45,011 bases of DNA from a virus. The DNA is taken from IMG/VR virus record IMGVR_UViG_3300030380_000065, positions 1 through 45,011 of that record. One strand, given 5' to 3'. How positions within the stretch are numbered: the stretch's first letter is position 1; each line of letters opens with the position of its first letter. Shown here one piece after another: positions 21,996 through 34,254 of this stretch. Position numbers and translations under genes: made by a program. Below the pieces are notes generated by a model. It saw nothing but the letters and a program-made list of their open reading frames with translations. It was not told the origin of the DNA and made no database searches.

Positions 21996-22403
21996 CTAGG
22001 TGGCTTTTTGCAACATCATTGTCATCTCTCTGTTGCTCTGATCTAACAATCTCGTTACCCAAATCTCATCTTGACGTTTTTCCGCATCGCCAATTGTGTG
22101 ATCTATAGCATTACAAAGCTTCCAAATGCGTTGTTCTTCATGTTTTGTCAAAGGAGTCTTGCTCTGATCGTAATTTATTACCTCTTCATTGCCCTTTTTC
22201 GGCTTTTTCGCCTCGCTTAAGTACAAAACAGCGTACTTCACGGACAATGGTATGCGATAATGGTCAGTTTCATAGCATCTGTACCCTCTTTCGCTCATGC
22301 CTAACTTCTTTGCCATGTCTATTTGGCTAAGATTTAAACTTTTTCTGTGATCTTTTAGTTTATCACCAGACCAATCACTAAAACTCTTGTCGTTTTTCTT
22401 CAT
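21996..22403 (-). CDS. XRE-family (Cro/C1-type) transcription regulator
   Basis: 135 residues. The helix-turn-helix lies at about 14-60: KLKDHRKSLNLSQIDMAKKL, then GMSERGYRCYETDHYRIPL, with the typical Q-x3-A-x3-G spacing (QIDMAKKLG). The C-terminal half (EEQRIWKLCNAIDHTIGDAE) may serve for dimerisation. It overlaps the gene upstream by 26 bases and precedes the late block, so it could switch early to late transcription or act on nearby operators. Binding sites are not shown; the palindrome at 22818-22847 and the CGAACA arrays are candidates. Confidence 0.82.
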   Translation of the reverse strand: MKKNDKSFSDWSGDKLKDHRKSLNLSQIDMAKKLGMSERGYRCYETDHYRIPLSVKYAVLYLSEAKKPKKGNEEVINYDQSKTPLTKHEEQRIWKLCNAIDHTIGDAEKRQDEIWVTRLLDQSNREMTMMLQKAT

Positions 22404-22817: not shown

Positions 22818-22847
22818 ATAGATTTACAAGTTAACTTGTAAATCTAT
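22818..22847. repeat. Perfect 30-bp palindrome across the amidoligase stop codon
   Basis: The 15-base arms meet at 22832/22833 with no loop (ATAGATTTACAAGTT and its complement). The TAA stop of the amidoligase gene lies in the centre. In DNA such a perfect palindrome is typical of a dimer-binding operator or resolution site. In RNA a loop-free 15-bp inverted repeat would fold only with a few central bases unpaired. It precedes the terminator by 15 bases. Confidence 0.85.
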
Positions 22848-23946
22848 TTTCAAACCATGTTTTTAAATCTTCTCTAATATTAGACCAAATGCAATCGTTA
22901 TTGTTATTTAATTGAATTGTACCATTTGAGATTCTCTCGATTTCCATTGGAATCTTGTATCCATTAAGATCGTACATTCCATTTGATGAACCATTTAAAT
23001 GACCATAAAATTCTTGGTTCAATGTAATAACACATTGAGTACAACCAACCTTTCGCCTAATTGTGTTAATGGTTCTTCTAACAGATCTTGCATCGTTAAT
23101 ACCACATTGACTCATAATCTCTTGAGTCGTTGCTCCATTAGGATTCTGACATAATTGAAACACTTTCCATAATTTAGAGTTATAAGGCATAGAGTTATTA
23201 AGTGACTCTGTGTAACGTGTGCCTTGATCAACTAAATTAAATCTATTGTGATGGGAATAATCAACAAGAGTAACTATAAATTCAACAAAGTTTTTAAGTT
23301 TAGTATTATTTAATGTTCCTTGATGTTGCCTAAATTCAATCGTTCCTTTACCACCACCATTAGACTCAATATGTGAAATGTTTATTGCGTTAAACTTTCC
23401 ACCACATACATTCTGCAATTGAGATAAGTTATCGCAATTCTCAATCCTTGCGACTCTGTCTGTCATATTTCTTGCATATCTTGAGTCTCTTCTACTAGGT
23501 GCAAGGAAAGAATTTATTGTTGCTTGATGCTTGGCATATCTAAAGCAAATATCTTTTATAATCTCAAATTGAATCGCATCATTTGAGTCTTGAAAATATT
23601 TGTTTTGTCTAAACTTTGCAATTGACTTTGTGTTAAATTCTTCAGAGTCCATTGTAATCGGTTTCAAACCAATATGAACATGATGACCACATGATGTCGA
23701 AACTCTTCCACCAAGTGCGATAATAATGTCATTAACTTGACTTGAAATTCTCCAAGTAGATTCTGCCTTAAAAGATAATGGTGGGAAAACAATCTCGCCA
23801 CCATTAGGAAGAGAACCATCCCTAATAACTCGTAAATAATCCAAATGTGGATAATTTGCGAGAATCTCATTACGTAAAGTAGTAGGACTCAAATTGTCAA
23901 ATTCTCTTTCAAGTCCAATTGCTCTATCTGTTTTTATATTTGTCAT
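22831..23946 (-). CDS. Amidoligase-family protein (Amidoligase_2-like) with C-terminal winged-helix-like region
   Basis: 371 residues from the ATG at 23946, which has AAAGG seven bases upstream; an in-frame ATG at 24006 is rejected because it lies in the promoter region. Motifs: GLEREF (11-16), RDGSL (42-46), GHHVHIG (87-93) and IEFRQHQGTL (203-212), as in the glutamine-synthetase-like carboxylate-amine ligases described as amidoligases. Residues about 260-300 (ATTQEIMSQCGINDARSVRR) look like a winged helix. The substrate is unknown; predicted phage members act on peptides or peptidoglycan-like substrates. It seems to be monocistronic, with its own promoter and terminator. Confidence 0.75.
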   Translation of the reverse strand: MTNIKTDRAIGLEREFDNLSPTTLRNEILANYPHLDYLRVIRDGSLPNGGEIVFPPLSFKAESTWRISSQVNDIIIALGGRVSTSCGHHVHIGLKPITMDSEEFNTKSIAKFRQNKYFQDSNDAIQFEIIKDICFRYAKHQATINSFLAPSRRDSRYARNMTDRVARIENCDNLSQLQNVCGGKFNAINISHIESNGGGKGTIEFRQHQGTLNNTKLKNFVEFIVTLVDYSHHNRFNLVDQGTRYTESLNNSMPYNSKLWKVFQLCQNPNGATTQEIMSQCGINDARSVRRTINTIRRKVGCTQCVITLNQEFYGHLNGSSNGMYDLNGYKIPMEIERISNGTIQLNNNNDCIWSNIREDLKTWFENRFTS

Positions 23947-23983
23947 AATGTAACCTTTCATTTTAAATGTTGTTTGCGAATCA

Positions 23984-24012
23984 AGTATACTAAATTTAAT
24001 AGGCATTGTATA
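23984..24012 (-). promoter_or_regulatory. Probable promoter of the amidoligase gene
   Basis: On the minus strand TATACA (24007-24012), a 17-base spacer and TATACT (23984-23989) lie 38 bases before the ATG at 23946. The -10 is good and the -35 weak. The spacer begins ATGCCTAT, which recalls the TGCCTAT block of other promoters here. Confidence 0.5.
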
Positions 24013-24060: not shown

Positions 24061-24436
24061 TTTTCTGCGAAAGTTCGCTCAAAAGGAGGAAGGCTTCAGA
24101 ACTGGGGAGCCGATCCGACACCGAACACCGAATCCGAAGCCCAACACCGACACCGACTCCGAGCCCAATGAACTGGGAGGTCTGGGCGTAACCGAACAAT
24201 AGTTCGCTGATTCAACCAGATCCTCCGGGCAAAAGCTAACAGGAACTGGTGCGTCTGGTCGGGGAACCGAACAATAGTTCGACTCCGAGCCCGGTCCGAG
24301 CAGCCAGGGTGCGGCCTGCTGCCTGGCACCAGAGCGAACAATCGCAGAGTTCTGCGACTTTTTTTCGGCCCGGTGTAACCTCTACCGGGCAACCAGAGCG
24401 AACAATTATTCGGTCTACGCCCAGCTCAGCAAAAAA
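24061..24436. repeat. GC-rich non-coding island A with CGAACA array
   Basis: This stretch has no convincing gene. Its base composition jumps: 37 of 60 bases are G or C at 24121-24180 and 38 of 60 at 24301-24360, against 14 of 60 at 23941-24000. It holds CGAACAATAGTTCG at 24193-24206 and 24268-24281, CGAACAATCG from 24335, CGAACAATTATTCG at 24399-24412, and leads to CGAACAAAAAAAA from 24437. Spacings are 75, 67, 64 and 38 bases. Hairpin-forming inverted repeats lie between the elements (for example GCCCGGT/ACCGGGC around 24369-24390). CCGA words are frequent in its left part. It is a diverged partner of island B; a replication origin, packaging site or regulatory RNA are candidates. Confidence 0.8.
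24342..24365 (+). terminator. Possible plus-strand terminator inside island A
   Basis: TCGCAG (24342-24347) pairs with CTGCGA (24352-24357) around a 4-base loop, followed by C and seven T (24359-24365) on the plus strand. The opposite side lacks a T run. It would stop transcription running left to right, against all neighbouring genes. Confidence 0.5.
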
Positions 24437-24441
24437 CGAAC

Positions 24442-24468
24442 AAAAAAAACCAGAGCTAGAAGCTCTGG
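24442..24468 (-). terminator. Rho-independent terminator after the 107-residue gene
   Basis: CCAGAGCT (24450-24457) and AGCTCTGG (24461-24468) form an 8-bp stem with a 3-base loop; on the minus strand eight T follow (24442-24449). It closes the single-gene transcript started at 24933-24961 and is embedded next to the last CGAACA element of island A. Confidence 0.9.
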
Positions 24469-24572
24469 CTTTTCCGAACAATCCCCCTTTCTATGTGATT
24501 AGTAATAAGTAAAAGAAAAATCCGAACATTGTGATCATGCCGAGTGCATTAACTAAGAACATCCAAAACATA

Positions 24573-24896
24573 TTAAATGTACCTCTCTTTAAGTGCATAA
24601 CCATCGCCATAAAGAACACTCGCTAAAGTGTAGACCATGTGAAAACCCATATCCATTCCACAACCACCAACACCAACAGAGTTAGTTTTATCTTTGTAAG
24701 TCCACTTAAGCACCTTGGCAACATGATAAGAATAATGATAAATGTTACTATCTTTGATTGAGTGGCAACTGATGTGCCTATACATCCCACTTCGTGACAC
24801 TTGTCTAATCACTAAGTAGACAGTTGACCCCTTTGGGAAAGCATCTTTTAACAGTTGTGTTGAATACTCAACAGTATTAAATTTTAAATCGTCCAT
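24573..24896 (-). CDS. Conserved phage protein between the two repeat islands, unknown function
   Basis: 107 residues. KDAFPKGSTVYLVIRQVSRS, then GMYRHISCHSIKD, and the C-terminal VGGCGMDMGFHMVYTLASVL and YGDGYALKERYI are strongly patterned segments that I recall from conserved but uncharacterised phage and bacterial proteins. A strong ribosome site (AACAAAAGGAGT) precedes the ATG. It has its own promoter and terminator and is flanked on both sides by GC-rich islands, so it forms an isolated cassette. The Arg-His and Cys-Gly-Met-Asp-Met-Gly motifs suggest an enzyme or binding site, but I assign none. Confidence 0.78.
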   Translation of the reverse strand: MDDLKFNTVEYSTQLLKDAFPKGSTVYLVIRQVSRSGMYRHISCHSIKDSNIYHYSYHVAKVLKWTYKDKTNSVGVGGCGMDMGFHMVYTLASVLYGDGYALKERYI

Positions 24897-24932
24897 AATA
24901 GACTCCTTTTGTTTTTGTTTGTTTGTACTATT

Positions 24933-24961
24933 AATATAGGCATTTAGTTCCTACTTGTCAA
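24933..24961 (-). promoter_or_regulatory. Strong sigma70-type promoter of the 107-residue gene
   Basis: On the minus strand TTGACA (24956-24961), a 17-base spacer and TATATT (24933-24938). The spacer carries TAGG after the -35 and TGCC before the -10, as in two other promoters of this window (28180-28208 and 41620-41648). The ATG lies 37 bases past the -10. Confidence 0.82.
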
Positions 24962-24993
24962 ACACTAAATTAATTTTTTTTGTGGGTTTTTTT

Positions 24994-25397
24994 GTTCGGT
25001 TCGTCCTGGCGTCAAGCTGGGTGAAAAGCGAACAATAGTTCGTTAACTGAGCTGGGCATGCAGACTTTGTTCAGCACATGCTGACACCAGATCTGGGTCA
25101 GAATCCGAACAATTGTGAAGTCCGAAGCCCGACAACACCAGTTTACCCAGCTTGGCCAGCGGCCAGGAGCGAACAATAGTTCGAGGTGCTCGAAGTCCCA
25201 GCTGGGAAGCTGGGTCTGGAGCGAACAATTATTCGCCACGCCAGCTTAGCCCTGGAAAAACACCGAACAAAAGAAAAAAAAGAGCAGAGGCACGGCAGTC
25301 CGAGCAACTCCGACACCGAACAACTCCGAAAGTCCGAGCCCGACAACCCGACTGGTGAAGTCCGAGCCTCCACGCCTTACCGAACACACCAAGTGTT
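24994..25397. repeat. GC-rich non-coding island B with CGAACA array
   Basis: No convincing gene. G+C is 35 of 60 at 25141-25200. CGAACAATAGTTCG occurs at 25029-25042 and 25170-25183, CGAACAATTGTG from 25107, CGAACAATTATTCG at 25222-25235 and CGAACAAAAGAAAAAAAA from 25264. Spacings are 78, 63, 52 and 42 bases, close to those of island A, and the stretch after the ATTATTCG element shares ACGCC(C)AGCT(C/T)AGC with A. Between elements lie CCCAGCT/AGCTGGG and other inverted repeats. The right part (25295-25385) is dense in CCGA. It adjoins the 3' end of the small terminase gene, so a pac/cos-like or origin role is worth testing. Confidence 0.8.
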
Positions 25398-25401
25398 GGC
25401 G

Positions 25402-25929
25402 TTATTTTGTGGGCGTTACGCTATTATGTTCTATCGTCTGTGGGTCGTTATGGGTCTTTGTGGCTACTTTCATGCGTTTCTGTGCAACATCTTGAAATTC
25501 TTGTAGTTTTTCCAGTATTTGCTCTCTTGTCATAGTGTCTGCTTGTTCATGTAACACATGAGCCTTATTTACAAGCAATCCAGTAGCCTTTAAACGCAGT
25601 TCTTCAGCACGGATAGCTTCACCGAACTTACCACTTTCCCACGCCTCATTTCTGATCTTGAGCAGATCACGGACTGACTTCTCAATCGTTACACCGAACC
25701 TAGACCTAGCTTCCTCACGCATCTCTTGATATCGCTCTTGGACAACTGGGTTACGCAACAAGCGAACAGCATCAACGCCAGGGTTCGCATATCCAGCAGA
25801 TCTTGCTGCCGAAGTCTGCGTCATGTCTTTGTGCATGAAGTTATCTAGAAAAGCCTGTTGCTTATCTGTTAATCTTTTCTGACCAGATAGCCTTTGCTCC
25901 CTAGACAGATCTTCTCCTACTCTTGGCAT
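25402..25929 (-). CDS. terS: Terminase small subunit
   Basis: 175 residues from the ATG at 25929, which overlaps the upstream TAA (TAATG) and has GGGAG before it; an in-frame ATG at 25944 is rejected. RLTDKQQAFLDNFMHKDMTQ, then TSAARSAGYANPGVDAVRLL, forms the DNA-binding helix-turn-helix of Terminase_2-type small subunits. NPVVQERYQEMREEARSRFG follows, then the helical assembly domain (SVRDLLKIRNEAWESGKFGE) and a disordered tail. It recognises the packaging site and directs TerL; such sites often lie in or beside terS, and island B adjoins its 3' end. Confidence 0.85.
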   Translation of the reverse strand: MPRVGEDLSREQRLSGQKRLTDKQQAFLDNFMHKDMTQTSAARSAGYANPGVDAVRLLRNPVVQERYQEMREEARSRFGVTIEKSVRDLLKIRNEAWESGKFGEAIRAEELRLKATGLLVNKAHVLHEQADTMTREQILEKLQEFQDVAQKRMKVATKTHNDPQTIEHNSVTPTK

Positions 25930-26384
25930 TATTTTATCTCCCATCTAAATTTAAGTTGACCATGAATCGGCAACCAATCTCTATTCGGTCTTGTGGTCCA
26001 ACCTTTGTTTTCTTTCCAACCACCTGTTTCTCCCATTATTTTCCAACCTACACCACGAAGACTTGCTCCTGATTCTTTTTGCAACGTATATGTAATCATT
26101 TTGTCGCCACCCATTTGTTGCCATATTCTCCAACACCTTCCATACAAAAACGAACAAGTATTCTTTGGTGCGTTAGGCGTTACACAAACACGCAACACCT
26201 CTGCTGTAAATCCATCATCTAATCTTCTTGCTACTGGTCTACCAACAATAGCAACACCAAACAAGCCATCAAGCGATGCACCTATGGCAAATTTGCCTCC
26301 TTGTGTTGGTTTACTATGTCTATGGAAGTTCGCTACAAATTCATTAGCTTCTTGTATGCTCATAGGTATGGTTTTAAGTTTCAA
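25929..26384 (-). CDS. XF1762-family protein, GNAT-like (TTG start)
   Basis: 151 residues. I take the TTG at 26384 because AAAGG lies eight bases upstream and family members begin with an equivalent of LKTIPMSIQEANEFV before NFHRHSKP. Motifs: GKFAIGASLDGLFGVAIVGR, FTAEVLRVCVTPNAPKNTCS, FLYGRCWRIWQQMG, ITYTLQKESGASLRGVGWK. These match the XF1762 family, which appears to have an acetyltransferase-like fold. The substrate is unknown. It is preceded by the GGTAAGT-rich region and coupled to terS by TAATG. Confidence 0.78.
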   Translation of the reverse strand: MKLKTIPMSIQEANEFVANFHRHSKPTQGGKFAIGASLDGLFGVAIVGRPVARRLDDGFTAEVLRVCVTPNAPKNTCSFLYGRCWRIWQQMGGDKMITYTLQKESGASLRGVGWKIMGETGGWKENKGWTTRPNRDWLPIHGQLKFRWEIK

Positions 26385-26430
26385 AACACCAACCTTTCGC
26401 TTTGGTAAAATATAGGGTATGGGGTGGGTT

Positions 26431-26632
26431 ACTTACCACCCCCCTATACCCCCTATAGGGGGGGAAGTTCGGTAAGTTGGTAAGTACCAATGAAATCAAT
26501 GACTTACAAGCTAAAATTAACTTGCAATGGTAAAAAGTAAGTTCGGTAAGTTGATTTAATTTATCTAATATTATCAATGACTTATAACTTCCCTCTATTT
26601 TTACTTACCAAGTAAGTTGGTAAGTGGTAAGT
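26431..26632. repeat. Cluster of seven GGTAAGT elements with 15-bp direct repeats
   Basis: In this 250-base gene-free stretch GGTAAGT or its complement occurs at 26431-26437, 26471-26477, 26479-26485, 26545-26551, 26603-26609, 26619-26625 and 26626-26632. AAGTTCGGTAAGTTG is repeated exactly at 26465-26479 and 26539-26553. A CCCCCTATAGGGGG palindrome sits at 26449-26462. The layout resembles iterons or a multi-site operator upstream of the XF1762-terS pair. Confidence 0.78.
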
Positions 26633-26635
26633 AAA

Positions 26636-26959
26636 TTACTCATAAATGACCAGTACATTGTGGAAATCTGTACGTTTATACCACGAGCCATTATCGGTAC
26701 ACTCGTAGCCTAAATCACGCATTGCTGCCCATGTTTGAACCCAACAATAATGGCAATCATCATCGCCAAGACCACTACGTTTGTAACAGTTCATTTTATG
26801 ATTAATATCTAGTTTAATTTTTTGTGTTAGACCCATTTCAACAGCACAACCAAGACAGATTGTTCGCTTATTAACAACCAGTTCTCGGTTACGCAGGATC
26901 TGCTCGTTGCACTTTGTGCAGCGAACTCTAGGCAAGTTCTTGGAATTTTGGGAAACCAT
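26636..26959 (-). CDS. Small zinc-finger-like protein, unknown function
   Basis: 107 residues from the ATG at 26959, chosen because GAGGA lies eight bases before it; a TTG at 26974 is too close to that site. CTKCNEQILRNRELVV, then KRTICLGCAVEM, gives two Cys-x2-Cys pairs spaced as in a treble-clef or DksA-like zinc finger. A further Cys/His cluster (NCYKRSGLGDDDCHYCW) follows. It overlaps the upstream gene by 32 bases. Zinc binding is likely; the partner is unknown. Confidence 0.7.
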   Translation of the reverse strand: MVSQNSKNLPRVRCTKCNEQILRNRELVVNKRTICLGCAVEMGLTQKIKLDINHKMNCYKRSGLGDDDCHYCWVQTWAAMRDLGYECTDNGSWYKRTDFHNVLVIYE

Positions 26960-28179: not shown

Positions 28180-28208
28180 TATATAAGCACTCATTACCTA
28201 TATGTCAA
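28180..28208 (-). promoter_or_regulatory. Strong sigma70-type promoter at the end of the amino-methyltransferase gene
   Basis: On the minus strand TTGACA (28203-28208), a 17-base spacer and TATATA (28180-28185). The -35 lies inside the last codons of the methyltransferase gene. The spacer starts TATAGGTAAT and ends GAGTGCT, similar to promoters at 24933-24961 and 41620-41648. It should drive the group from 28144 to terS at 25402. Confidence 0.82.
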
Positions 28209-29595
28209 ACAATTTTAACTGGGGTTTTACGTTTTTTATCCTTGCCTTGGCGATTTCGTAGTATTCTTCTTCTTTTTCTATGCCAATGAATCTAAAATCT
28301 TCTTCTCTTGCACCCATGCCAGTTGATCCACTACCCATAAACGGATCGAGCACCAGTCCTCCTTTGGGCGTAACCAAGCGAACAAGGTATCGCATCAGCT
28401 CAACTGGTTTAACTGTTGGGTGAGTGTTCGCTTTAATTTCACCTCCCAGTCCTGACTTACGCTCATCTTTTGATGTCTTTGCACAGTAGAAATACCGAGA
28501 AGCGTTGCCATGATCCCCATAAGCTGGCATATAATCTCCATCATCATCTTTGTTATCTGACCATATTCCCTTGTGTGTTCGTTGTCTGCTGACCTCCGTG
28601 CTGCTCGTTGTTGGAAAGATTTGCTGCACTTGTTCGCTTCCGTCGTGCATAATATTACTGGGCCATCTGCCTCTTGGATCTGCGTCTGCAAACTCCGAAC
28701 CCTCCGACTTCATGCCACTATTATCATCAGTCCACACGCCATCTGCTGTCCGAGCTTTGCGAACAACTTTTTTTCTTTCAATGGGTTTATCTCTATGTTG
28801 CCCAAAACTTAATTTATCTAACCCACCTCTTGCCATAGCTTCTTTTGCAACAGCTCTGAATGATGGATTTGTTGGTGGTCTATCAACTTCTCCATCAATC
28901 CTACAAGCGTCAATGTTTATTGCACCAGTTCCGTGCTTCATCACATTGTCTGCCACCGACTTCTCCGACAAAGGCTTTCTTGCTAACACCATTGGTTCAT
29001 GTGCAGGTTTTAACGCAGTACCCCAACCTTCCCATTCTGAATTGCCTTGCGTATATTTGTAATCTTTATTAGCTATACCACCATCCATGTTAAGACCATT
29101 ACCCAAGCTAGTAGCTATTCTATTGTTCGTTTCAACAACTTCACGCTGATTACCCATTTTCTTATCAACTTCTTTGCCTATATTGTGGCTTTTAGGAAAC
29201 CCACTACCATACAACCAAATACATTGATCTCTAATTTCAAACCCAGCGTCTTCTATGGCAACTGCCATTCTATGGTATGTTCGTGATCCACTAAACGCTA
29301 TCAAATGACCTCCAGGCTTCAACAACTCATAACATTTACGCCATGTGTTCGCTTGGAAAGCTATATCACCTCCATCCCACTCTTTGCCCATAAAACCTTT
29401 TGACGCTCTGGCAAATGCTCCATCTGTACCGAACTGAGCTGGTGCTGAATCTTCTTTACCGAACCTTTTAACTATTGATGTTAGGTGATACGGCGGATCA
29501 GTTACCACGCTATCAACCGAACACTTATCTATTTTCTCCATGACTTCTAAGCAGTCGCCATTGTAAACTTTGCTACCTTCTATTATTATTTCCAT
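28198..29595 (-). CDS. Site-specific DNA amino-methyltransferase, beta class (N6-adenine or N4-cytosine)
   Basis: 465 residues. Motif IV TDPPYHL at 32-38 comes first and the AdoMet-binding motif I DPFMGSGSTG lies at 417-426 near the C-terminus, preceded by THPTVKPVELMRYL. That order (IV, variable target region, I) is the beta class. DPPY usually means N6-adenine, but N4-cytosine cannot be excluded. The central 250 residues would recognise the target. No restriction endonuclease gene is beside it, so protection of phage DNA from host enzymes or regulation is more likely than a full restriction system. It carries at least six AGCGAACA-type words. Confidence 0.88.
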   Translation of the reverse strand: MEIIIEGSKVYNGDCLEVMEKIDKCSVDSVVTDPPYHLTSIVKRFGKEDSAPAQFGTDGAFARASKGFMGKEWDGGDIAFQANTWRKCYELLKPGGHLIAFSGSRTYHRMAVAIEDAGFEIRDQCIWLYGSGFPKSHNIGKEVDKKMGNQREVVETNNRIATSLGNGLNMDGGIANKDYKYTQGNSEWEGWGTALKPAHEPMVLARKPLSEKSVADNVMKHGTGAINIDACRIDGEVDRPPTNPSFRAVAKEAMARGGLDKLSFGQHRDKPIERKKVVRKARTADGVWTDDNSGMKSEGSEFADADPRGRWPSNIMHDGSEQVQQIFPTTSSTEVSRQRTHKGIWSDNKDDDGDYMPAYGDHGNASRYFYCAKTSKDERKSGLGGEIKANTHPTVKPVELMRYLVRLVTPKGGLVLDPFMGSGSTGMGAREEDFRFIGIEKEEEYYEIAKARIKNVKPQLKLFDI

Positions 29596-31897: not shown

Positions 31898-32163
31898 CCT
31901 ATATCATCTAAAATATTTCTGCTAAATACATGGGTGCTGGTTTTATACACTTTACCATACTCTATTTCTTTCAATGCACGAGGATCGTCTTCAAATCTTT
32001 CTTCGGTGTGGACATCAGGCATAGGTACAAAATCTGATTTGTTGTTGTGCATGCTAAGTAATTTTGCTATGACACAACTTTTACAAAGAGTGCCGTACTT
32101 TCTTTTAGTTTTTATTATTGGCAGCAACTTATCGCATTCACAACATCTATCGTATTTTTTCAT
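31894..32163 (-). CDS. Small zinc-ribbon-like protein
   Basis: 89 residues. Two knuckles, CCECDKLLPI at 7-16 and LCKSCVIAK at 26-34, form a Cys4 zinc ribbon. The rest is hydrophilic (HTEERFEDDPRALKEIEYGK). It overlaps the end of the cytosine methyltransferase gene by 17 bases, with GGAGG 11 bases upstream. Co-transcribed with that gene, it might be a DNA-binding helper, but this is inference. Confidence 0.68.
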   Translation of the reverse strand: MKKYDRCCECDKLLPIIKTKRKYGTLCKSCVIAKLLSMHNNKSDFVPMPDVHTEERFEDDPRALKEIEYGKVYKTSTHVFSRNILDDIG

Positions 32164-33442
32164 CAGTTTTATCTGCCTCCTTTATTGCATAAAATATCCT
32201 AGCTACCACTTGTGGAACGATACTATTCCCTAAACATCTAAGTCGGTGTACCCTGTTGGATACCCCATTAGCCACTCTACCCACGTTGGGTTCAGCGTTC
32301 CAGAGGACTGGTCTCTCACGGAAGGATGGTTGCCTAACATCTTTTGCATCTTCCCCCCTGGTCGACCCGCTGCATCTTCGTTTGCCGATGGCGTAGGGAA
32401 CATCTCCTTTTTGGGATAATCCCATTTCTCCATTCTTGGTGGTCTTAGTGTGCAACCTAGCATCTGTTGTGCTTGTTGTTCGGTCAACTCTCCCCTCTCC
32501 ACCTTCTTTCGGAAGATCATCGTCTGACCCATTGATGCATGTCCGTACCCCTTTGTTGTCGGTGTCGGCCACATTGATTCTTTCTCTGCTACAAATGTTC
32601 CCAAAGTGTGTGCTCTCGTTCCCTTTTGAACTGACGGCGGTACTGTGTATCCGTCTTTCCAATCCCTTGCTCTCGGTGTTGGATACATCTTCACGCTGTC
32701 CGCTAGGTTCAAACTGTGAGATGTCTGCCCGTCCTTGCTCAAACGTCTGTTGTTCGGTGTCAAATCCGCTTGCGGGTGTTCTATCTCTTGTGTTGTCGGT
32801 GTTGGCCATAAGGTCGAAGATGTCTGTTTGTACAAACTCATTGTCTGTTCGTCTACTTGCTCCCTCAAGTTCGCTGGTTTGGTTCTGCCCTTGCGTTGAC
32901 CTTCCATTAACTTGGTTGTTCCCTCCTCTGAACGTGGTGGTAGATGATCCATCGTGTTCGGAGTAGCCCACAATCCAGCATCGCATTCGTCTATGTTTGG
33001 CATCGACGGCTGCAGCTGGAATAAGATATGGTATGGCTTTGTACCCAATACTTTCCAAGTCAACGAGACTTCTTCTGAGACCCATTGGCATTGTAACAAA
33101 GCCTGACACATTTTCGCCAATGATCCATCTAGGCCGTATGTCTTCAATAACCCTAACCATTTCGTGCCAGAGATCTCTGTCATCTTCGCTGCCTCTTTGA
33201 GATCCTGCAACCGACCAGGGTTGACATGGAAATCCTCCAACAACGATGTCTGCGTCTTTGTATTCTTTTGCATTAAAACTCCTTATATCACTATATATTG
33301 GTACATCGTGCCAATGTTTACGCAAGACTTTTTGACAATATTCATCTTGTTCAACAAAAGCTATTGTCTCAAAGCCACCTACTATTTGTTCGGCGGCATA
33401 ACTAAATCCACCTATACCACTAAATAAATCTACTATCTTCAA
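32147..33442 (-). CDS. C5-cytosine DNA methyltransferase (TTG start)
   Basis: 431 residues from the TTG at 33442, which overlaps the upstream stop as TTGA and has GGGGAG eight bases before; family members start at this KIVDLFSG point. An ATG at 33472 is in frame. Motif I LFSGIGGFSYA (6-16), motif IV GFPCQPWS with catalytic Cys73, motif VI ENV (110-112), motif VIII RRMRCWIVG (151-159), motif X GNSIVP (405-410). Residues about 165-390 are low in predicted structure with DTDNKG-like repeats, and this part also encodes another gene in a second frame. It methylates an unknown cytosine target. Confidence 0.9.
   Translation of the reverse strand: MKIVDLFSGIGGFSYAAEQIVGGFETIAFVEQDEYCQKVLRKHWHDVPIYSDIRSFNAKEYKDADIVVGGFPCQPWSVAGSQRGSEDDRDLWHEMVRVIEDIRPRWIIGENVSGFVTMPMGLRRSLVDLESIGYKAIPYLIPAAAVDAKHRRMRCWIVGYSEHDGSSTTTFRGGNNQVNGRSTQGQNQTSELEGASRRTDNEFVQTDIFDLMANTDNTRDRTPASGFDTEQQTFEQGRADISQFEPSGQREDVSNTESKGLERRIHSTAVSSKGNESTHFGNICSRERINVADTDNKGVRTCINGSDDDLPKEGGEGRVDRTTSTTDARLHTKTTKNGEMGLSQKGDVPYAIGKRRCSGSTRGEDAKDVRQPSFRERPVLWNAEPNVGRVANGVSNRVHRLRCLGNSIVPQVVARIFYAIKEADKTDEKIR
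32230..33273 (-). CDS. Overprinted gene inside the C5-methyltransferase gene: WPTPT-repeat protein
   Basis: 347 residues, read in another frame of the same strand (start offset 199 bases from the long ATG frame). It is wholly inside the methyltransferase gene. Patterned segments: SLLEDFHVNPGRLQDL, VSLTWKVLGTKPYHILFQLQ (69-88), NTMDHLPPRSEE, GRTKPANLREQV, five (W/Y/F)xTP motifs at about 102, 156, 197, 235 and 292, and the C-terminal GTLNPTWVEWLMGYPTGYTD (325-344). I recall this LTWK...WPTP...LNPxWVEWLMG architecture as a real phage family next to or inside C5-methyltransferases. Its function is unknown to me. No strong ribosome site is seen. Confidence 0.75.
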   Translation of the reverse strand: MQKNTKTQTSLLEDFHVNPGRLQDLKEAAKMTEISGTKWLGLLKTYGLDGSLAKMCQALLQCQWVSEEVSLTWKVLGTKPYHILFQLQPSMPNIDECDAGLWATPNTMDHLPPRSEEGTTKLMEGQRKGRTKPANLREQVDEQTMSLYKQTSSTLWPTPTTQEIEHPQADLTPNNRRLSKDGQTSHSLNLADSVKMYPTPRARDWKDGYTVPPSVQKGTRAHTLGTFVAEKESMWPTPTTKGYGHASMGQTMIFRKKVERGELTEQQAQQMLGCTLRPPRMEKWDYPKKEMFPTPSANEDAAGRPGGKMQKMLGNHPSVRDQSSGTLNPTWVEWLMGYPTGYTDLDV

Positions 33443-34254
33443 CCTGTACACTCCCCACCATCTTGTTGGCAAAGATAAGCCTCATTATTAAATATCCAAT
33501 CTTGTTGAGCATTAACAAATTTAGCAAACTCTTTCATGCTTCTCTTACGTTCAAACCTTTTGTTAAGTCTTTGTTCGGCATCGATCCACCATTGAGCTAA
33601 GTCTGGGTGATCTCTGACCATAGATGCAAGTTGTGATTCAGATTTAAGAAAACACAAATCACAATTACCTTTGATGGTTTTACCTTTAACAACTGGTAAG
33701 TTAAGTTTAAAAGATTGTTCGCTCCAAAAGTGATCTACATCACGCAAACTGTGATTAGCTTCAACCATTGGATAGTGTGGATAGAAGCCATTTTGAAAAC
33801 CATCTTTGCATCTATGCTTCTCATCCGACCTTATGCCCATGATGTTGTGCCATCTCTTCCAACCAAGACTTCTTAAATATTTACTTATAGTGTCTCTTTT
33901 CAAACTACCAGTACAGAATCTTGCTAATGGATTAGGTAACATCTGATGCTTATTTATTAATTTATCAAATGGTTCGCCTCTCTTACTGGCAGTTTCATAG
34001 TCTACAACTTTAAATATATGCTTGTTCTCATCATTCAAATCATATTCTAACCAGACAATTTTCATTCCCCAGTTGAGCGAACAATCATTAATAAACTCAA
34101 GTGTTTGTGGCATCTCTCTGCCAGTGTTCGCAAAACAAACCACTGCGTTATCTGGTAGACCATTGTTGTTATCAATGATTTTTTTCAACATAAAGCCACT
34201 AGTTCTGCCACCACTAAAGCTAATTACACAATTATTGTCTGGAAGTTTATACAT
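33439..34254 (-). CDS. PAPS-reductase-like / adenine nucleotide alpha-hydrolase family protein
   Basis: 271 residues from the ATG at 34254, with GAGGG just before it and an 8-base overlap with the primase gene. A PP-loop SFSGGRTSG at 12-20 binds ATP. VCFANTGREMPQTLEFIND follows as in PAPS reductases, then ARFCTGSLKRDTISKYL with Cys114, MGIRSDEKHR, and a Cys pair NCDLC (198, 201). Phage members resemble sulphur-activating enzymes including DndC-type proteins, but no other dnd gene is seen. A role in DNA or RNA thio-modification is speculative. It overlaps the methyltransferase gene. Confidence 0.8.
   Translation of the reverse strand: MYKLPDNNCVISFSGGRTSGFMLKKIIDNNNGLPDNAVVCFANTGREMPQTLEFINDCSLNWGMKIVWLEYDLNDENKHIFKVVDYETASKRGEPFDKLINKHQMLPNPLARFCTGSLKRDTISKYLRSLGWKRWHNIMGIRSDEKHRCKDGFQNGFYPHYPMVEANHSLRDVDHFWSEQSFKLNLPVVKGKTIKGNCDLCFLKSESQLASMVRDHPDLAQWWIDAEQRLNKRFERKRSMKEFAKFVNAQQDWIFNNEAYLCQQDGGECTG

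Follow-up and report, generated by a model that had tools for sequence, protein, structure and literature searches.

Phage genomes are already known to contain short repeated sites, and several described systems attach such sites to genes in an orderly manner. The TerS-recognized pac/cosB regions of SPP1 and lambda consist of several short directional words beside terS. In integrons, gene cassettes are arrayed as single accessory genes sharing an orientation, and after each comes an attC repeat with core sites GTTRRRY/RYYYAAC. The DNA uptake sequences associated with terminators are reportedly short conserved words located at the ends of genes, about their intrinsic terminators. The stoperators of Cluster A mycobacteriophages are 20-30 genome-wide sites without dyad symmetry that, when bound by a phage protein, stop transcription elongation (PMC6550527, PMC9283540).

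The locus described here lies in IMG/VR record IMGVR_UViG_3300030380_000065, the 45,011 bases of which are hereafter called the window. Its TerL is 55-60% identical to those of Pelagibacter phages HTVC027P and HTVC023P and of phage 023Pt_psg01, and the window is a marine phage, kin of the HTVC027P/HTVC023P-type pelagiphages, which likewise harbor variable genes between terS and terL. Nearly all window genes are carried by the minus strand, which is thus referred to as gene sense. Two GC-rich islands, A and B, lie on either side of a 107-residue accessory gene, between terS and an amidoligase gene:

21996 to 22403, minus strand: XRE-type helix-turn-helix protein, a candidate binder
22831 to 24006, minus strand: Amidoligase_2 gene, bounding the interval downstream
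24061 to 24490, minus strand: island A, a GC-rich array of elements that separates the 107-aa/micro-ORF unit from the amidoligase gene
24122, 24193, 24268, 24335, 24399, 24437 and 24475: elements of island A, as CGAACA on the plus strand
24193 to 24206, minus strand: full dyad element CGAACTATTGTTCG (gene sense), with identical copies starting at 24268, 25029 and 25170
24342 to 24364, plus strand: opposite-strand terminator-like hairpin TCGCAGAGTTCTGCGA with a T-run
24399 and 25222, minus strand: dyad variant CGAATAATTGTTCG (gene sense)
24443 to 24475, minus strand: strong hairpin GCCAGAGCTTCTAGCTCTGGTTTTTTT resembling an intrinsic terminator, with an element on either side here and likewise in relatives
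24491 to 24571, minus strand: conserved hydrophobic 26-aa micro-ORF MFWMFLVNALGMITMFGFFFYLLLIT, last gene of the 107-aa unit
24573 to 24896, minus strand: 107-aa accessory gene, phrog_12365
24933 to 24961, minus strand: sigma70-like promoter TTGACA-17-TATATT of the 107-aa gene
25000 to 25400, minus strand: island B, a GC-rich array of elements that separates terS from the 107-aa gene
25029, 25106, 25170, 25222, 25264, 25317 and 25381: elements of island B, as CGAACA on the plus strand
25402 to 25944, minus strand: terS (Terminase_2 family), bounding the interval upstream
26385 to 26640, no strand assigned: AT-rich ACTTACC/GGTAAGT iteron array with a GC-rich hairpin, in the intergenic gap upstream of terS and separate from the islands

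The element reads ATTGTTCG in gene sense and usually forms the strong half of a dyad, CGAACAATTGTTCG; CGAACA on the plus strand corresponds to TGTTCG in this sense. Between 24061 and 25397, CGAACA occurs 15 times on the plus strand and once on the minus strand (24993), and the whole window holds 55 copies, compared with 11.3 (s.d. 3.1) in shuffles. The original prediction, of two GC-rich islands in A+T-rich DNA bearing the same ordered array, is borne out as regards composition (GC of 0.549 in island A and 0.544 in island B, about 0.55 in each, versus 0.375 in the window), the four exact copies of CGAACAATAGTTCG (24193, 24268, 25029 and 25170), the two copies of CGAACAATTATTCG (24399 and 25222) and the spacing of island A (75, 67, 64 and 38 bases). 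In island B, the spacings of 52 and 42 are right, but the preceding two are 77 and 64 rather than 78 and 63. The five elements attributed to each island undercount them, since further copies exist at 24122, 24475, 25317 and 25381, while the CGAACA at 24523 falls within the 26-aa micro-ORF and not in noncoding DNA. The order shared by islands A and B is present in the window, but element number and spacing vary in both islands among close relatives, many of which carry more than two islands, and the likeness is therefore, to judge from these sequences, probably a coincidence.

The 107-aa gene has its own promoter (TTGACA-17-TATATT at 24961-24933) and a predicted terminator (the hairpin at 24475-24443), as had been proposed, and the spacer of this promoter resembles an operator-like palindrome seen in other accessory-gene promoters. 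An element lies 9 nt past the stop codon of the micro-ORF that closes the unit. The opposite-strand hairpin at 24342-24364 overlaps the end of the element at 24335 and is kept in close relatives, and a terminator scan of island B returned no convincing candidate. The 107-aa protein yields a confident AlphaFold model (pLDDT 94) that matches no PDB entry significantly; its structural matches are exclusively viral proteins of unknown function. The protein family is widespread in phages and presents an invariant GCGMDMGF motif.

Relatives were gathered by IMG/VR scans using the array, the 107-aa protein and TerS as queries. Elements follow terS in all 67 distinct terS-adjacent loci examined (terS at least 55% identical), among which there were thus none of the island-less relatives that would have spoken against the islands as first described. 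A scan for three spaced copies of ATTGTTCG, made without reference to terS, identified 111 stretches. A relative of this terS was present in 57 of the 84 newly fetched loci, several further loci carrying other genes of the group end before terS, and the remainder contain apparently unrelated repeats, many of them in AT-rich DNA. Searches of the interval against 50,697 phage records produced alignments of 36-48 bases only, mostly in coding parts, and the array is absent from the nearest cultured phages. The terS query gave only weak matches in 398 genomes of one phylum, the matches listed when bacterial genomes were scanned for the array were scattered among unrelated taxa, and the pelagiphage papers searched contain nothing on such arrays. 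The phages bearing the arrays are a large, marine and so far uncultured group. A gene for a Mom-like DNA modification protein adjoins terS (window 25929-26384, minus strand), and the window also encodes an N6/N4 methylase (28198-29595, minus strand) and a C5 methylase (32147-33472, minus strand); given these proteins, the phage DNA may be modified.

Like the window, HTVC027P and 023Pt_psg01 harbor GC-rich islands among accessory genes near terS, but theirs use other words (GCTTGAAGCTTG-type and GGGCCCACCC) and contain no ATTGTTCG array. The HTVC023P/HTVC027P-type phages also possess their own repeat arrays near terS, with CTAGGAAAA upstream, CAAATCTTGAGAATACATACCGAAAATTTTTTG in tandem downstream, and TTGAGACA. 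The corresponding regions are:

L180, 6500 to 8120, and L182, 10300 to 11600: GC-rich islands of HTVC027P and 023Pt_psg01
L429, 3795 to 3900; L181, 4467 to 4570; L538, 4850 to 4960: HTVC-type repeat arrays beside terS

The element holds a regular position across relatives, with clear ties to terS, the amidoligase gene and stop codons. The 65 non-redundant loci with both flanks share a common order of terS, an island, accessory genes with islands in the gaps between them, and the amidoligase gene, and the arrays are confined to this interval. Islands A and B are two members of a series found in relatives. Accessory genes differ widely among loci, with small families recurring in varied combinations, and the 107-aa family is one among several alternatives. 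Among the genes most often seen to end a unit, the first element usually comes 0-13 nt past the stop codon. In a gamma-glutamyl-cyclotransferase-like family, an element lies within 10 nt past the stop codon in 25 of 27 cases; in another family (G2) the stop codon is fused to the element (TAATTGTTCG) in 11 of 12, and two recurrent micro-ORF types present an element 0-13 nt past the stop in 23 of 23. A 25-26-aa membrane micro-ORF closes the first accessory unit in many relatives, regardless of the gene preceding it. Stop codons of other gene families lie 40-500 nt from the element that comes next, partly because more genes of the unit follow. Many accessory units have TTGAC promoters of their own. 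An operator-like palindrome, approximately GYAATNATTRC, was read by eye between the -35 and -10 of accessory promoters, and it is possibly a candidate XRE operator. In the clear cases an intrinsic terminator sits between the first two elements (window 24475-24443, L144 and L150), and many elements lie downstream of a predicted terminator.

Conservation sets the element apart from its surroundings. In aligned arrays of five clades it was intact in 542 of 559 ortholog comparisons (97%), whereas stretches of the same length between elements were intact in 4814 of 16461 (29%). Identity per position is about 0.70 outside, 0.83-0.94 within the left half and 0.97-0.99 within ATTGTTCG, delineating a footprint of about 14 bp, a dyad with its right (3') half strongest and its left half weaker. 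Such strong conservation, while the surrounding DNA drifts, means that the element must be recognized by something. Orientation is also biased, with 535 elements in sense only, 89 in antisense only and 68 perfect palindromes; 86% of the non-palindromic elements match the direction of transcription, although some clades are mixed, with many elements in reverse. The excess of sense copies (535 versus 89) agrees with a function that acts along the direction of transcription.

Recognition by a host factor would make the element a decoy or a host-factor site, its dyad copying a host operator or recombination octamer such as the Gram-positive LexA box (CGAAC-N4-GTTCG) or a Chi-like word. In keeping with this, the element stays the same even in phages with a TerS that is only 58% identical, and a paper on mycobacterial LexA-DNA binding contains CGAACAATTGTTCG (PMC8607333). 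A LexA dimer is expected to need both halves, however, and the CGAAC left half is intact at only 16% of the TTGTTCG sites in the intervals. The octamer, moreover, is just mildly above its reversed control (58 versus 37) in one small proteobacterial genome that may not be the host's. We consider a host-factor site highly improbable; assignment to the Gram-positive type of LexA box was rejected, as the sites do not each carry both CGAAC and GTTCG.

Recognition could alternatively occur on the transcript, where TTGTTCG would pair with the CGAAC half or bind a protein, and a chain of 3' UTR hairpins would protect the mRNA or titrate a factor. Arrays do fold better than shuffles (mean z of about -3.5 in sense and -2.6 in antisense over 25 arrays), but element-free spacers have a mean z of -0.57, so that this signal, which agrees with the structured RNA pair suggested in the original prediction, may stem largely from the palindromic elements. 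The prevailing orientation along transcription is likewise compatible with an RNA. Substitution patterns point both ways. Most changes in the left half turn C into T and so preserve a G-U pair (114 contexts, two C positions, versus 2 for G to A), yet pair-breaking changes of A to T or C outnumber the pair-keeping A to G by 31 to 6, and one clade breaks the stem (TCACAATTGTTCG). No Rfam match was obtained at the gathering threshold, and those at E values up to 10 were weak and at chance level. Covariation terms computed with RNAalifold on orthologous arrays of five clades did not exceed column-shuffled controls, leaving the structured RNA pair without support from either analysis, and a search of the window for tRNA and tmRNA found none. 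Many elements, furthermore, lie past the terminator. This and the broken stem favor recognition as DNA over RNA, and we regard an RNA-level element as unlikely.

The position next to terS suggests a further possibility, already raised in the original prediction: the elements could be binding sites for TerS, or for an initiator, and the islands would then make up a pac- or cos-like region rich in recognition words. The association with terS is genuine. It holds in 67 of 67 terS-adjacent loci, as adjacency to a packaging site would have it, 57 of the 84 loci newly fetched by the element scan contain a relative of this terS, and more distant phages with a different terS carry different repeats near it. 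As in the pac/cosB regions of SPP1 and lambda, the words are short, directional and close to terS; unlike in those regions, they reappear behind several separate genes across 1-3 kb. Elements are found behind genes as far as 2.5 kb away, some of them fused to stop codons, which a packaging site would not need after later genes, and only two or three elements directly follow terS in some genomes. A second array competes for the role, that at 26385-26640 upstream of terS, where AT-rich ACTTACC/GGTAAGT iterons occur in both orientations and with regular spacing in most relatives. By its sequence, this array is the better candidate for a replication origin or packaging site, which lowers the likelihood of either role for the islands. 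We therefore hold a TerS packaging site to be unlikely, and the islands as the replication origin, another of the options first proposed, did not find support. The islands are GC-rich with variable spacing, in place of the AT-rich conserved iterons of an origin.

The layout, in which accessory genes stand singly in a common orientation with a short repeat site after each, recalls integron gene cassettes, and the elements could be recombination anchors for swapping single accessory genes, much like an integron without an integrase. The interval is clearly a hotspot of gene replacement, with gene content that varies widely and small families in varied combinations, and to this extent the proposal of a mobile cassette stands. 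In some pairs of loci (e.g., L108/L119 and L367/L405) whole units were lost or gained between elements, which suggests that elements help units come and go. Similarity nevertheless breaks at an element in just 15% of 201 boundaries, versus 9% expected, so that breakpoints favor the sites weakly, and several swaps break instead in the promoter or leader and near the micro-ORF. No recombinase was detected among the window proteins scanned, which cover part of its genes, and the motif is unlike attC core sites. The locus differs further from integron cassettes in its many sites per gap and its own promoters, and an integron cassette array was rejected given that neither an integrase nor an attC core was found with the proteins scanned. 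Recombination anchoring thus appears improbable, and unit gain and loss is unlikely to be what keeps the elements conserved. A wider proposal, in which a dedicated boundary element read by a phage protein would delimit accessory units, many of them with promoters of their own, and so let genes beside the packaging module be exchanged and independently expressed without an integrase, making this a phage-borne modular cassette locus, is decidedly unlikely.

The reading we favor, tentatively and at somewhat less than an even chance, is that the islands are 3'-boundary sites for a DNA-binding protein and that, by analogy with stoperators, they would isolate separately promoted accessory genes from one another. 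Each island is a run of copies of the 14-bp dyad, with ATTGTTCG as its nearly invariant 3' half, and in the terS-amidoligase interval the run typically begins at or just past the stop codon ending a separately promoted unit, its elements bracketing the intrinsic terminator where one is clear. A sequence-specific protein, for which the phage XRE protein and TerS are candidates, would occupy the elements, and the bound protein together with the terminators would block read-through, resulting in separate expression of each accessory unit. The GC-rich spacer between elements would drift freely, and units could be gained or lost between copies.

This model is that of the stoperators, with the bound state carried over by analogy. 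As in their case, there are many short copies, most of them outside promoters and mostly in one orientation relative to transcription. Here, however, the site is a dyad rather than asymmetric, and instead of being dispersed genome-wide it is grouped in GC-rich islands within one interval and tied to stop codons. The best-supported comparison is therefore that the boundary array would work like stoperators without belonging to that family, the site being a dyad and confined to one interval. A conserved short word at gene ends around intrinsic terminators is also a likeness to DNA uptake sequences; here, by contrast, the word is confined to one phage locus.

Both candidate binders have helix-turn-helix features and, so far as could be checked, occur throughout the group, the XRE protein being encoded in each of the 32 fetched loci that extend from terS to terL. 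No XRE homolog was found in the HTVC-type loci examined, most of which covered 4 kb around terS, and these loci also lack the ATTGTTCG array, which counts for the boundary model. The recognition helix of the XRE protein, on the other hand, varies by clade (SERGYRCYET, SHRMWNHYEH) while the element remains constant, which disfavors this protein as the binder. Other observations also argue against boundary sites. Elements past a terminator would contribute little to ending the transcript concerned, a roadblock would seem to need fewer than the 6-9 copies of an array, island B has no convincing terminator, and some clades have reverse-oriented elements.

Together, these results delineate an 8-bp half-site that an entire group of marine phages keeps unchanged amid drifting surroundings, and that is tied to stop codons within a hotspot of variable accessory genes. 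The combination of an invariant word with universal XRE and TerS proteins makes the boundary idea directly testable. If true, it would show how this phage group keeps interchangeable genes separately controlled.
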